From Prochlorococcus sp. MIT 1223 (GTDB taxonomy: Bacteria > Cyanobacteriota > Cyanobacteriia > PCC-6307 > Cyanobiaceae), in NCBI RefSeq assembly GCF_034092465.1, contig NZ_CP139303.1, positions 310,001 to 374,000 on the forward strand: a stretch of 64,000 nucleotides of DNA, in the 5' to 3' direction. Positions 52,431-59,056 of this stretch are shown here, piece by piece (position 1 is the first letter of the stretch; every line of letters begins with the position of its first letter). The notes under the pieces were generated by a model. That model saw only the letters and a list, made by a program, of their open reading frames with translations. It was not told where the DNA came from and did no database searches. A program made the translations under genes and the position numbers.

Positions 52431-53987
52431 TTGCTAAAGACAATAAGAAATATATTATTATGGCTTCCTTTCTTATTGTATTTTGGTGAAAGAAGCTATA
52501 TAGCTCAAGACGAAGGTTACTACGCTCTACAAGCGAAATGGATATTACAAAAAGGTGAATGGATTGCCCCTATGTGGTGGGATGAAATTAGTTTTGATAG
52601 GACTAATGGGATTCAATGGTTAATTGCTATATCACAAAGCTTATTTGGAGAAACAATATTAGCTTCTCATTTACCATCTTTATTAGCAGGCTTTATAACA
52701 CTTCTCGTAACCTATAAGTTATCAGAAGAACTTATAGGGAAAGAATATAATTGGTTAAGTCCCTTGATACTTTGTACAAGTTTTATCTGGATAAACAATT
52801 TACATTTAGCAACTCAAGATATGCCTCTGCTGGCCTTAGAAATGATAGGAATTTACTCCTTATTAAAGAGCTCAGATAGAAGTTCAAGGTTCTATAATTT
52901 AATATTTGGCCTATGGATTGGACCAGCATGCCTATTAAAAACAGGCATGGTATTAGTACCTCTGATTTGTATTTCACCCTACATTATTACAAAAAAAAGG
53001 TATATAATCAATTCATTATATTTCTGGTTGGGGTTGCTTATTGGATTAATACCATTGATTACATGGCTGGCTATTTCTATACAGTCATACGGATTACAGT
53101 CTGTAAAAGGAATTATAGACAAAGTATATTTTCTTTCACAAAGTAATAATTACCACAAACCTCTTTTATACTATACTTGGAATATACCTATCAATTCTTT
53201 TCCCTGGATATTCTTTTCTATAATAGACGTAATAAACAAATTTAAAACTAATAAGATTTCTTCAAACTATCCTCTCTATATATATCCACTTTCTTTCATA
53301 ATTCTTCTTAGTCTTTTTAAGACTAAGACCTCATATTACCCCTTACAAATAGCTCCCCTTATAGCAATATCATCATGCTCTGGTATCAAATTAATTGTTA
53401 AGAACAAGCATATATTATCAAAATATTTTAGGAAATATGTCATTACCTTATCTCTATTCTTAATAACAATTTTATTTTATCTTCTTTATTCCTCTAGTAA
53501 TATTGATTTTATAGACCAAAATAGAACCACAATAATGTTATCAGTAATTCTATTTTTTGTTCCTTGGTTATTAGTTTACTTTTTCGAAAGCCCAAGGAAA
53601 ATTATAACTTGCCTAATAATAGGTCCCTATCTCTCTTACTCCTTAATAATACAGAATGGTTTTCTAACAAATAGAGATCCGGCAACAAAATATTTATTTA
53701 ATTCAAATCCACTGCTTTCAATAATAAACAAAAATACTATTGATGTATTTTATACTAATGAATTAAATAGTGATGACTTTTCCAAATTAGTCAAGATTGG
53801 AATTTACACAAAGAAATTAGGTAAAAGGATAAAGTCTATTAACCATAACGAATCAACTAATCCAATATGGATACATAGTGATAGTACTACTTTCTCAGAA
53901 GATGATCTGAGTTTAATTCTCGATTCTAAGGAATTAAGTCCATGGGTACTTGTTCGAAGAAAAAATCTACAGTCTTCTAATAGATGA
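52431..53987 (+). CDS. GT-C family glycosyltransferase (ArnT/PMT-like, GT39)
   Basis: Membrane protein of 518 residues with about ten or more helices that looks like glycosyltransferases using polyprenyl-phosphate sugars. The first loop has the acidic pair D27-E28 in AQDEGYYALQAKWIL, the expected catalytic position in PMT and ArnT enzymes, followed by AHLPSLLAG-like ASHLPSLLAGF. Sugar and acceptor cannot be told. The start is TTG at 52431. It is first in a plus-strand group with a GT2-methyltransferase fusion and an LPG_synthase_TM protein, which fits a lipid-linked sugar route. Confidence 0.83.
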   Translation: MLKTIRNILLWLPFLLYFGERSYIAQDEGYYALQAKWILQKGEWIAPMWWDEISFDRTNGIQWLIAISQSLFGETILASHLPSLLAGFITLLVTYKLSEELIGKEYNWLSPLILCTSFIWINNLHLATQDMPLLALEMIGIYSLLKSSDRSSRFYNLIFGLWIGPACLLKTGMVLVPLICISPYIITKKRYIINSLYFWLGLLIGLIPLITWLAISIQSYGLQSVKGIIDKVYFLSQSNNYHKPLLYYTWNIPINSFPWIFFSIIDVINKFKTNKISSNYPLYIYPLSFIILLSLFKTKTSYYPLQIAPLIAISSCSGIKLIVKNKHILSKYFRKYVITLSLFLITILFYLLYSSSNIDFIDQNRTTIMLSVILFFVPWLLVYFFESPRKIITCLIIGPYLSYSLIIQNGFLTNRDPATKYLFNSNPLLSIINKNTIDVFYTNELNSDDFSKLVKIGIYTKKLGKRIKSINHNESTNPIWIHSDSTTFSEDDLSLILDSKELSPWVLVRRKNLQSSNR

Positions 53988-54022
53988 CTGTCATGTATAG
54001 TTGATATATATGAATATAAATT

Positions 54023-55417
54023 ATGGATAAAGTCTCAAAGAAATTTAAATTCCAAAAAAAAAATAGGGCATACTATAAAGATTTAGAGTCAATTCATAAT
54101 CTACTTGTCCCTAAAGAGAAAAGGATCCTAGAGATAGGCTGTGGTACAGGTGACCTCTTAAATGGCTTATCACCATGCTACGGAGTAGGGGTTGAAAATG
54201 ACGAAATCATGGTTAATTATGCAAAAGAAAAGCATCCAAATCTGCAAATAAAATACGCTAACGTAGGGAACATAACTCCTAAGAGTATCAATGAAGAAAT
54301 ACCATTCGATATAATTATTATAAACAACTCATTAAATACAGTTAAGGATGTCCAAGGGTTACTAGAAAGATTAAAGTTGTTTAGCCACAAAAACACAAGA
54401 ATAATAATAAGTTTCCATAACTGGTTATGGCAACCTCTATTAAAAATAGCAGAAAGAGTAGGGCAGAGGGTGCCTCAACCTCCTGAGAGCTGGTTAACTC
54501 CGAATGATATTAAAAATTTACTTGATCTTTCTGGATGGGAATTAATTAAACATGGAAATAGATTTTTAATCCCTAGAAATATCCCACTCCTAACATCTTT
54601 CGTTAATCGATGGATAAGCCAACTACCTGTTTTCGAGACTTTAGGTTTAACACATTGGATGGTCGCAAGATTAAGCCATAGAGAGATTACTCAGACAAGT
54701 GTAAGTGTAATTATTCCTGCAAGAAATGAATCAGGTAATATATCTTCTGCTATTGAAAGAATGCCTGAATTAGGAACATCCACAGAAATCATTTTCGTAG
54801 AAGGACACTCTACAGATAATACATGGGAAGAGATTACAAGAGTCTGTGAATCCTATAATGGTAAATTTTCCTTAAGTAAGTATAAACAGTCTGGGAAAGG
54901 CAAAGCAGATGCTGTTTGGTTAGGTTTCGATAAAGCAAAGGGAGATATATTAATAATTTTAGATGCCGATCTTACCGTTAAGCCAGAAGATTTACCACGG
55001 TTCGTGAAATCCATGCAAGACGGTAGTGCAGACTTTATAAATGGATGTCGTCTTGTTTATCCAAGAACAAATGAAGCAATGCCAATATTAAATACAATGG
55101 CAAACCGATTCTTTGCTATTGTATTTTCATGGTTACTTAGGCAAAGACTTAAAGATACCCTTTGTGGAACCAAAGTTATTTGGAACAAAGATTATCAAGA
55201 TCTAAAGAAAGGAAGAAGTTATTTTGGGAACTTTGATCCGTTTGGAGATTTCGACTTATTATTTGGCGCAAATAAACTCAATCTGAAGATTTCTGAAATA
55301 CCGATACGTTATCAAGAAAGAACTTATGGAGCATCGAACATAGCTCATATAAAAGAAGGGATAATTCTTTTCAGAATGTGCTTAGTAGCAGCTAAGAAAC
55401 TACGTTTTATAAAATAA
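54023..55417 (+). CDS. Methyltransferase-glycosyltransferase family 2 fusion
   Basis: A 464-residue two-domain protein. Residues about 30-215 form a class I SAM methyltransferase (motif I EIGCGTGD at 37-44). Residues about 227-464 form a GT2 domain: SVIIPARNESGN, VEGHSTDNTWEEI, the D-A-D metal motif in ILDADLTVKPEDLPRF, and CGTKVIWNKDY, as in dolichyl or polyprenyl phosphate sugar synthases. A polyprenyl-phosphate sugar product is the likely result of the GT2 part (inference). The methyltransferase motif I is intact. The fusion is unusual. The LPG-type gene follows with no gap. Confidence 0.9.
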   Translation: MDKVSKKFKFQKKNRAYYKDLESIHNLLVPKEKRILEIGCGTGDLLNGLSPCYGVGVENDEIMVNYAKEKHPNLQIKYANVGNITPKSINEEIPFDIIIINNSLNTVKDVQGLLERLKLFSHKNTRIIISFHNWLWQPLLKIAERVGQRVPQPPESWLTPNDIKNLLDLSGWELIKHGNRFLIPRNIPLLTSFVNRWISQLPVFETLGLTHWMVARLSHREITQTSVSVIIPARNESGNISSAIERMPELGTSTEIIFVEGHSTDNTWEEITRVCESYNGKFSLSKYKQSGKGKADAVWLGFDKAKGDILIILDADLTVKPEDLPRFVKSMQDGSADFINGCRLVYPRTNEAMPILNTMANRFFAIVFSWLLRQRLKDTLCGTKVIWNKDYQDLKKGRSYFGNFDPFGDFDLLFGANKLNLKISEIPIRYQERTYGASNIAHIKEGIILFRMCLVAAKKLRFIK

Positions 55418-56398
55418 ATGAATCTTAGTAAGATTAGATTGTTAAAACTAGTTATAACATTTTTTTTATTATATACGGCTATAAAATTATATCCAGAATT
55501 TTCAAATATAAAATATTATATATCACTTGTGCCAGATAAGTTATGGATCTATTCCCTAATAATTCCTATTCTAAGTCATTACATACTAAGTATAAGGTGG
55601 TTTTTCCTAATAAGATTCCTAAAATATAAGATAAGTTATTTTGATAGCCTAAAAGTATACTTAGCCGGTCTTACGTTTATGGCAGCACCCGCCAGGAGTG
55701 GAGAAGCAATAAGAAGCCTCTGGTTATCAAATCGGCATTCGATACCCATAAAGATAGGTATAGGTATAACTATCAACGAAAGAGTTACAGACTTAATAAG
55801 TGCTTTAATATTAATTATTTGGTCTACAAATAATATAAAACTATTAATCGTACTTATACTTTTTTTATTTACTATCATTTATACAGCAAGATCCTATAAA
55901 ATCTTAAGTATTGTAAATACTACTTTAAAGAAGTTAAGTATATTTTTAATTCGGTTTATGCCCTTTATTAGTAAACATAGAGGAAGAACAGGTTTTAAAT
56001 CAAAATTATATAAAATATTATCAGGTATCAAAGAAATAAATAAGCCTACTCCAGTAATTATTGCAACCTTTTTATGTATTATTGCGTGGCTTTTAGAAGC
56101 ATTGTTAATGTATTTTGTTTTTAATTCATTAAATGTTAATCTATCTTATAAGCAATCAACGTTAATTAGAACAGCCATGGGAATAGGAGGTGCTCTTTCA
56201 ATTTTTCCGGCTGGACTACTTACTAGTGAATCTACTTCAATAGGATTAGCGGTTGCATTAGGTTCAGGGAAAGTAGAAGCACTAGCATCTACTTTATTTA
56301 CCAGGATTTACACTTTATTGATTCCTAGTTTAATAGGCTTAATATCTATGAATTCTCAAAAAGACTTGAACTTCAAATCAAATAAAAAATTTTATTAG
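55418..56398 (+). CDS. LPG synthase TM-like (flippase-like) membrane protein
   Basis: A 326-residue membrane protein with about eight helices. The family text is AAPARSGEAIRSLWLSN and IGITINERVTDLISALIL, with a late AMGIGGALSIFPAGLLTSE, which match the LPG_synthase_TM family. Relatives include the membrane part of lysyl-PG synthases and proposed lipid or sugar-lipid flippases. The aminoacyltransferase domain is absent. The start codon follows the previous stop at once, so the three envelope genes form an operon. Moving the sugar lipid across the membrane would be a natural job (inference). Confidence 0.87.
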   Translation: MNLSKIRLLKLVITFFLLYTAIKLYPEFSNIKYYISLVPDKLWIYSLIIPILSHYILSIRWFFLIRFLKYKISYFDSLKVYLAGLTFMAAPARSGEAIRSLWLSNRHSIPIKIGIGITINERVTDLISALILIIWSTNNIKLLIVLILFLFTIIYTARSYKILSIVNTTLKKLSIFLIRFMPFISKHRGRTGFKSKLYKILSGIKEINKPTPVIIATFLCIIAWLLEALLMYFVFNSLNVNLSYKQSTLIRTAMGIGGALSIFPAGLLTSESTSIGLAVALGSGKVEALASTLFTRIYTLLIPSLIGLISMNSQKDLNFKSNKKFY

Positions 56399-56401
56399 AT
56401 T

Positions 56402-56776
56402 ATGAGCTTCAATTCTGATGATCTTAAGAAATTAAAAGAACTAGTTAAAAAGTTACCTAATGAGTTAGATAAACCCCTATCAAAATCTGAGTGCAATTTA
56501 CCAGAATCAAGGCAATATAAATTTGAAACAGATGATGATCCCGATAATATTTTTCATTCCATTATTGATGCCAGTACTGATGGCTCAATTCCTTCTCATC
56601 TAATTGATAGAATTAAAGAAGCAGAATGTAAACAATCTAATAGCAGAGAAGCCTCTGATATTAGTATTAATCAAAGAAAACAATCTAATCATTATAGATA
56701 TAAAGAATCAGCAAGTGAAGAAGACAGTCTATACTTCAAGTTCAAAAATCTCCTCTTAGATGAAGAGGAAGACTAA
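56402..56776 (+). CDS. Small acidic protein, unknown function
   Basis: A 124-residue hydrophilic protein rich in Asp, Glu, Ser and Lys, with a helical head (LKKLKELVKKLPNEL) and an acidic tail LLLDEEED. No domain recognised. It starts 3 bases after the previous gene and 16 bases before rlmH, so it is transcribed with them. Probably partly disordered. Confidence 0.7.
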   Translation: MSFNSDDLKKLKELVKKLPNELDKPLSKSECNLPESRQYKFETDDDPDNIFHSIIDASTDGSIPSHLIDRIKEAECKQSNSREASDISINQRKQSNHYRYKESASEEDSLYFKFKNLLLDEEED

Positions 56777-57344: not shown

Positions 57345-57785
57345 ATGTGTTCCGTCTCCTTTTACCAAAAAAAATCTCGTCTTTCTCTGCCTTTAGCAAG
57401 CGAGAATGTATCGGCTGGTTTTCCTTCTCCAGCCGATGACTATATGGATGTTGGAATTGACCTCAATGAAGAGCTAATTAAACATCCTGCTAGCACATTC
57501 TTTCTAAGAGTAAGTGGTCATTCAATGACCAATGCAGGTATCTATGATGGGGACTTACTCGTGATTGATCGTGGGATCAACCCAATTCCTGGCCAAATTG
57601 TAATCGCCATATTAGATGGTTGTTTTACATTAAAAAAACTTACAAGAAATAATGAAAAGCTGTATCTAGAAGCAGAAAGTCCTAACTATCCCTCTATTGA
57701 GATAAGTACATACGAATGTGTGCAGATATGGGGGGTAGCAATTTATAACATCCATCAATTAAGCAAAATTTCAAGATTCTCATGA
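57345..57785 (+). CDS. umuD: UmuD-type self-cleaving subunit of DNA polymerase V
   Basis: UmuD is cleaved with help of RecA-ssDNA filaments to UmuD', which forms polymerase V with UmuC for translesion synthesis. In 146 residues the cleavage site is A24-G25 (SAGFPSP; E. coli has Cys24-Gly25), the serine is S60 in VSGHSMTNAGI, and the lysine is K97 in CFTLKKLTR, at the same positions as in E. coli UmuD. No helix-turn-helix is present, so it is not LexA itself. The gene lies right after the LexA-box palindrome and overlaps umuC by four bases. Confidence 0.95.
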   Translation: MCSVSFYQKKSRLSLPLASENVSAGFPSPADDYMDVGIDLNEELIKHPASTFFLRVSGHSMTNAGIYDGDLLVIDRGINPIPGQIVIAILDGCFTLKKLTRNNEKLYLEAESPNYPSIEISTYECVQIWGVAIYNIHQLSKISRFS

Positions 57786-59056
57786 CTAAATTTATAGCAT
57801 TAATTGATGGAAATAACTTTTATGCATCTTGCGAACAAATGATTAATCCTGCTTTATCAGGTAAACCTGTAATAGTTCTTTCAAATAATGATGGATGTAT
57901 TATATCAAGAAGTGCAGAAGCACGAGAGTTAAATATAAAGATGGGACAACCTTACTTCAAGATAGCTAATACAGTAGACGCTCTTGGAATCAATGTCTGC
58001 AGTTCAAATTACTCATTATATGGAGACATGAGTAATCGATTAATGAGTTTAATAGAAGAGAGGTCTGAGAAAATAGAGGTATATTCAATCGACGAAGCCT
58101 TTGTACAAATATCTCATTCAAATAGAAATAATCTAATTTATTGGGCACAAGAACTCCGTGCGATTGTCCAACGTAATATAGGCTTAACAGTAGCTATTGG
58201 TATTGGGAAGAATAAGGTTCAAGCTAAAATTGCTAATTATCTATCTAAAGAATTAGAAACACATGCTGGTATTTTTAATATTTGCATGGAAGACAGGAAA
58301 GATACTTGGCTAGAAAGAGTAGATGTCGAAAAGATATGGGGAATTGGAACAAGCATGTCTTCCTGGTGTAGAAGAAAAGGAATTAATAATGCAAAACAAT
58401 TTAGAGATATGTCAACTAATTTACTTAAAGCTAAATATGGAGTAATTGGAATACGTATTCAGGAAGAACTACGAGGTAATAAATGCATCAATCTTTTGAC
58501 AAAACAATCATCTAAAAAAGAGACTTGTGTAAGTAGAAGTTTAAAAAAGCCAATAATTAACAAAGCTCAACTCAAACAAGTAATTGCTTCTCATATTATT
58601 TTAGCAAGTGCAAAACTAAGAAAACAAAAACAACTTACTGGAAGTATAACTATATTTGCAAGAACAAGTTTATATAATCCAAATTTCCATAGTAGAAGTG
58701 CTAGTAAAAAATTGAATGTTCCATGCAATAATACTAATACTCTGATAAAAATTTCACTATCTTTAATTGATGAAATTTATTCTGAGAACTGCAGATTTAC
58801 TAAGACAGGTGTAATAATGCAAAAACTCCAGGGTATCGACTTTATTCAACTATGCTTAAATAATCAAAATGATATTGATAACTTTAGAAGGCAAGAAGTT
58901 CTAATGAAAACAATTGATAATTTAAATATGCGTTATGGGAAAGATACTATTAAATGGTGTATCTCATTTATTAACAAAGGTTCTCATGTGAATCATCTAA
59001 ACTTAAGCCCTGCCGCCTCTACAAGATTTAAAGAAATTGGAATTGCAAGAGCATAG
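57782..59056 (+). CDS. umuC: UmuC, Y-family DNA polymerase V catalytic subunit
   Basis: Error-prone lesion-bypass polymerase. The Y-family catalytic features are ALIDGNNFYASCEQ near the N terminus, PVIVLSNNDGCIISRSAEARELNIKMGQP, and YSIDEAFVQI with the catalytic Asp-Glu pair, followed by IGIGKNKVQAKIANYL. Its 424 residues match E. coli UmuC (422). The start codon overlaps the umuD stop (ATGA), so translation is coupled. Confidence 0.97.
   Translation: MTKFIALIDGNNFYASCEQMINPALSGKPVIVLSNNDGCIISRSAEARELNIKMGQPYFKIANTVDALGINVCSSNYSLYGDMSNRLMSLIEERSEKIEVYSIDEAFVQISHSNRNNLIYWAQELRAIVQRNIGLTVAIGIGKNKVQAKIANYLSKELETHAGIFNICMEDRKDTWLERVDVEKIWGIGTSMSSWCRRKGINNAKQFRDMSTNLLKAKYGVIGIRIQEELRGNKCINLLTKQSSKKETCVSRSLKKPIINKAQLKQVIASHIILASAKLRKQKQLTGSITIFARTSLYNPNFHSRSASKKLNVPCNNTNTLIKISLSLIDEIYSENCRFTKTGVIMQKLQGIDFIQLCLNNQNDIDNFRRQEVLMKTIDNLNMRYGKDTIKWCISFINKGSHVNHLNLSPAASTRFKEIGIARA

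Follow-up and report, generated by a model that had tools for sequence, protein, structure and literature searches.

Three consecutive genes in the 64,000-nucleotide window analysed here (bases 310001-374000 of the Prochlorococcus sp. MIT 1223 genome, one contig of 1,795,922 bp) encode an ArnT-like GT-C glycosyltransferase, a fusion of a methyltransferase with a GT2 glycosyltransferase, and a flippase-like membrane protein (Table 1). By analogy, they may form a lipid-sugar relay across the cytoplasmic membrane, resembling ArnC-flippase-ArnT or AglD-AglR-AglS; the probability of this reading was put at roughly two in three (0.68). On the cytoplasmic side, the GT2 half would load polyprenyl phosphate with a sugar, whose most likely donor is a GDP-sugar. 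The fused methyltransferase may methylate that sugar or lipid-sugar within the same protein. The flippase-like protein, a member of PF03706, would turn the lipid-sugar outward, and the ArnT-like GT-C and a second GT-C of ~800 amino acids would pass the sugar to a surface acceptor, either lipopolysaccharide, a wall or capsule glycan, or a protein. The making, flipping and transfer of a polyprenyl-phosphate sugar had been proposed in an earlier note on this DNA. I infer these reactions, the sugar, its methylation and its acceptor from the gene structure, gene order, folds, motifs, block conservation and co-occurrence, all of which the proposal fits.

The fusion protein matches Glycos_transf_2 (1.2e-22) and Methyltransf_31 (4e-11) of Pfam. 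Its structure was modelled from 38 sequences with a mean predicted local distance difference test (pLDDT) of 88 and a predicted template modelling score (pTM) of 0.85. Both folds are present in the model, so the earlier reading as an S-adenosylmethionine (SAM) methyltransferase-GT2 fusion was borne out. The nearest fold to the GT2 half (modelled residues 222-461) is that of DPMS 5mlz (Z 23.0, root-mean-square deviation 2.6, 223 residues), followed by ArnC 9bhe_A (Z 22.7) and then GtrB; a second comparison concurs. The DxD motif, D314-A-D316, is invariant in 38/38 fusion sequences. In all 32 cyanobacterial rows D-A/S-D was found, and the motifs D(T/S)LCGTK and DPFGDF are retained. The earlier note had considered that the Asp metal motif might be missing from orthologues, and it is missing from none of either set. 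By fold and DxD, the GT2 half fits a DPMS/ArnC-type polyprenyl-phosphate glycosyltransferase with a predicted transfer activity.

The GT-C protein was matched to PMT_2 with 65.8 bits (E 6.9e-18; gathering cut-off 26.1), and D27-E28 is invariant in an alignment of 13 sequences, in agreement with the earlier description of a GT-C with a DE pair in its first loop. The profile of the 13 sequences matches ArnT 5EZM over residues 17-415 (E 2.3e-18). In this match D27-E28, in the putative first outside loop, is aligned on the DE pair of ArnT. The flippase-like protein matches LPG_synthase_TM (PF03706) with 130.2 bits (E 1.5e-37; cut-off 33.4) and TIGR00374 with 89.7 bits (cut-off 43.2). The intergenic gaps are 35 nucleotides between the GT-C and fusion genes and 0 between the fusion and flippase genes. 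Thus, the earlier naming of the third gene, the consecutive order and the zero gap agree with the score and the coordinates.

Do these genes belong together? I searched each of 151 sampled genomes of the family with the fusion, the GT-C, the flippase and the second GT-C, which had come to light within the block in other genera. Orthologues were accepted from 165 bits for the GT-C and from 150 bits for the flippase and the second GT-C, limits chosen by eye where the ranked scores showed gaps. Fusion matches were found in 27 genomes, full length in 23 and partial in four of genus g17. GT-C matches accompany the full-length fusion in 22 of its 23 genomes, flippase matches in 21 and matches to the second GT-C in 19. 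The corresponding counts for the 128 other genomes are five, one and two. The Fisher p of this co-occurrence is 3e-18 or lower, a value that ignores kinship among the genomes and so overstates the case. By coordinates, the GT-C, fusion and flippase genes lie in one same-strand block in 18 of the 23; for locus L040 (genome G112, high G+C) the gene order was taken from the search coordinates. Among the remaining five, contig ends interrupt the block in G059, G082 and G110, a flippase match is lacking in G134, and G150 is split into two pairs ~12 kb apart (fusion with flippase, GT-C with second GT-C). In the 18 blocks, the second GT-C lies between the GT-C and the fusion (10), after the flippase (three) or outside the block (five). 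In the window genome it is ~845 amino acids in length and stands alone outside the window (G000:C1:100645-103032; L081:4532-7069). Thus, the second GT-C belongs to the system, which has at least four genes and is more than the trio first described.

The block occurs in at least three genomic settings. It is bordered by ksgA and rlmH in genus g1, and gmd and fcl lie downstream in L030, L035 and L039. A divergent porin gene is beside or near the block in L032, L034, L036, L041, L042, L043 and L048. Since the genes change their setting yet stay together, they likely act as a unit. The porin gene of L032 (12225-13823, opposite strand) encodes an NF033921 iron-uptake porin. It is possible that this neighbour hints at the acceptor, or it may merely reflect a stable neighbourhood.

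Several observations weigh against the relay. The GT-C model from a single sequence is unusable (pLDDT 39), and the link of this protein to ArnT rests on the profile match. The flippase profile found no match among solved structures. When the fusion is aligned to DPMS, R343, N357 and N361, all invariant in the 38 sequences, lie at the three sites of the lipid-carrier phosphate ligands, which I take to be R117, R131 and S135 in DPMS. R343 fits one ligand, and N357 and N361 replace the presumed R131 and S135. In trees of 11 shared taxa, fusion and flippase share 6/8 splits, fusion and GT-C 3/8, and flippase and GT-C 2/8 (null means 0.3-0.5). The GT-C tree thus agrees poorly with the fusion tree; fusion and flippase seem to be co-inherited, and the GT-C seems to be more freely exchanged or faster evolving. 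The fcl gene is present in the window genome, but since it is common in the family (88/151 genomes) it says little about the donor sugar, and the attempt to derive the donor from fcl co-occurrence was dropped as not specific. In genus g17, which I take to be high-light (HL) Prochlorococcus with MIT9301 and MIT9312, no flippase match was found in the search of the 151 genomes. Among four HL genomes, the GT-C gene is next to the GT2 gene in L044 and L045, is a remnant in L046 and is absent there in L047; in L046 and L047 the full-length GT-C is located in a surface-sugar cluster that includes gmd. The earlier grouping thus holds only in part for the HL genomes. Outside the cyanobacteria, GT-C and flippase genes are mostly absent next to the fusion, as judged from the best 80 of at least 561 loci, so the fusion works in other settings too.

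The first alternative concerns the methyltransferase half. Residues 1-218 of the model have a class I methyltransferase fold with many matches, such as 1vlm (Z 21.8 over 196 residues) and 2gs9 (Z 21.0). Two sugar enzymes, TylM1 and CalS10, match about as well as many others and do not decide for a sugar substrate. The window protein shows the fold, an intact SAM motif I (E37-x-G-x-G-x-G43, EIGCGTGD) and the acidic residue after strand 2 (E58), the features of class I SAM methyltransferases. However, the relay may be real and this half may yield no product, being a scaffold or a decaying domain, so that an unmethylated sugar is delivered. All 10 matches of genus g17 start aligning at query residue 98-119 and thus lack the SAM-binding half; the HL-type loci L044-L047 have a 363-residue GT2 with a leftover linker that aligns weakly. 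Motif I is altered to EIGSRYGD in L039 (same family and genus as G010, presumably SS120) and is also changed in L078, L079 and L080. Among picocyanobacteria, identity to the window protein is 42-62% in residues 1-120 and 70-83% in the GT2 half. On the other hand, a strict motif I scan of the first 140 residues was passed by 22 of the 32 cyanobacterial rows (HL sequences account for four of the 10 failures), and a dead domain would hardly remain fused across so many phyla. I regard this alternative as rather doubtful. Since the GT2 motifs are kept where the SAM half is lost or damaged, the GT2 appears to be the core of the fusion, and the methyl group would be optional or its transfer uncertain. 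The methylated sugar or carrier of the earlier note is thus a guess.

B12/radical SAM genes are also neighbours of the fusion in L079, L080 and L122, which raised the question of a functional tie between the truncated HL GT2 and the radical SAM gene that follows it. This tie was rejected; with 930 bits against a cut-off of 775, the HL gene falls into the slr0320 photosystem II family, and the adjacency therefore looks accidental.

The fusion is widespread in bacteria and so is not the remarkable part of the locus that it had first seemed. It was found that at least 561 relatives exist in genome contigs. The best 80 are spread over Acidobacteria, Nitrospirae, Bacteroidetes, Planctomycetes, Deltaproteobacteria, Omnitrophota, Alphaproteobacteria and others. 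Across many phyla, 37 fusion sequences are 40-51% identical to the window protein and have the same architecture. Of 292 genomes sampled within the cyanobacterial phylum, 26 have a match at 1e-30; they belong to 16 of the 116 genera. I collected 116 neighbour proteins from the best 80 loci, leaving out four loci without a clear core open reading frame (ORF) (L126, L155, L159 and L161) and proteins outside 131-899 amino acids, on the opposite strand or more than 150 nucleotides distant. Methyltransf_11 (24), GDP_Man_Dehyd (13) and Epimerase (13), which are overlapping sets, are the families of many neighbours; PMT_2 was found seven times and LPG_synthase_TM five times. Flippase-like genes lie near the fusion in L117, L135, L139 and L158, and since their products are only 15-20% identical to the window flippase, they were not used for the fold. 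Thus, links of the fusion with GT-C or flippase genes recur outside the cyanobacteria, yet they are not the rule.

These loci bear on a second alternative, in which the fusion begins a longer polyprenyl-phosphate glycan in the manner of AglJ, for instance one of the O-antigen or S-layer type, and the GT-C and flippase would handle this chain and not a single sugar. AglJ (TIGR04182) is indeed the best NCBIfam match of the fusion (1.7e-26), and the sugar clusters that hold the fusion outside the family also have gmd/fcl, carbamoyltransferases or GT4 enzymes. However, the AglJ score of 93.3 bits is far under the equivalog cut-off of 325, and no other cytoplasmic glycosyltransferase was seen within the picocyanobacterial blocks; I consider a longer chain unlikely. 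Still less probable is a third alternative, that the GT2 makes a glycosylated phospholipid which the PF03706 protein flips in the manner of MprF or a glucosaminyl-phosphatidylglycerol flippase, with the GT-C acting separately. PF03706, shared with these proteins, is named for lysylphosphatidylglycerol synthase, and the window flippase weakly matches GlcN_PG_flip (25.4) and bifunc_MprF (23.7). These scores fall far short of 320 and 600, the respective equivalog cut-offs, the closest folds to the GT2 are those of polyprenyl-phosphate enzymes, and 22 of the 23 genomes with the full-length fusion also carry the GT-C. That three unrelated genes are neighbours by chance, as the shortened HL GT2 without a flippase match and the full-length GT-C elsewhere in two of the four HL genomes might suggest, is hardly credible, given that the genes co-occur and that their block recurs in different genomic settings.

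Each step of the proposed lipid-sugar relay resembles known systems; what is new is their combination. ArnC, ArnE/F and ArnT add 4-amino-4-deoxy-L-arabinose to lipid A, with ArnE/F as an EmrE-like flippase. The window system shares with it the three-step logic, the ArnC-like GT2 fold and the ArnT-like GT-C with a DE pair. It differs in its PF03706 flippase and in the methyltransferase borne by its GT2. The Arn equivalog scores are also low: 58.2 bits for the GT-C against ArnT NF009784 (curated cut-off 567), and 52.2 against a cut-off of 529. In Haloferax volcanii, AglD forms dolichol phosphate-mannose, AglR helps its flipping and AglS transfers the mannose, according to the accessible part of PMC3871713. 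Here, too, charging, flipping and transfer are split among enzymes, a likeness by role; AglJ is another Agl enzyme. The Agl system is archaeal and carries dolichol-mannose to an N-glycan, and the same part of the source reports no fused methyltransferase. A literature search, with most subscription journals outside its coverage, found no description of a methyltransferase-GT2 lipid-sugar enzyme or of the trio, which is weak evidence of absence. Rgt-type galacturonate transfer to the lipid A of marine Synechococcus was also weighed, and the search yielded nothing usable on it.

The GDP-sugar donor is a guess drawn from DPMS as the nearest fold and from the gmd/fcl neighbours. A more detailed scenario can be offered only tentatively: one protein would make a sugar bound to polyprenyl phosphate and also methylate it (an O-methylated 6-deoxyhexose derived from GDP-fucose is one example), the PF03706 protein would flip it, and the two GT-Cs would place it on the picocyanobacterial surface. 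HL strains would then have dropped methylation, flipping and the second transfer, changing their surface. The surface decoration of Prochlorococcus is little known. The host strain belongs to deep-water Prochlorococcus. MIT1223 is assigned to grade LLVIII in Table 3 of PMC11559063. The surface of Prochlorococcus is the first contact for phages and grazers. If the relay is real, a distinct and probably methylated surface sugar would be found in LLVIII MIT1223, the SS120-like group and Cyanobium-like genomes (G089 is presumably Cyanobium gracile PCC 6307), and not in others. It would also give a first guess at the role of the widespread methyltransferase-GT2 fusions, namely charging a lipid carrier with a sugar.

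Table 1. Genes of the block and the ORF that follows it (product, window position, strand, remarks).
ArnT-like GT-C glycosyltransferase (PMT_2)	52431..53987	+	518 amino acids; TTG start; D27-E28 in first loop
Methyltransferase (~1-220) + DPMS/ArnC/AglJ-like GT2 (~224-464) fusion	54023..55417	+	464 amino acids
LPG_synthase_TM / TIGR00374 flippase-like membrane protein	55418..56398	+	326 amino acids
Acidic 124-residue ORF, function not assigned	56402..56776	+	3 nucleotides downstream of the flippase gene; without Pfam match

Upstream of the block is ksgA in the opposite orientation; downstream are the acidic ORF and then rlmH. The same two genes border the block in both other searched members of genus g1 (L029 and L031). 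The acidic ORF stays beside the RlmH gene in all three genus members, and none was found beside the block in the other genera examined. Thus, it is probably outside the relay system and goes with RlmH in this genus. No GT-C copies were found in IMG/VR viral contigs; two of these contigs (L162:5001-6128 and L163:5001-6128) have relatives of the C-terminal part of the fusion with 48% identity. Downstream of rlmH, at 57345-59056 of the window, are adjacent LexA/UmuD-like and UmuC-like ORFs, named from their translations alone.

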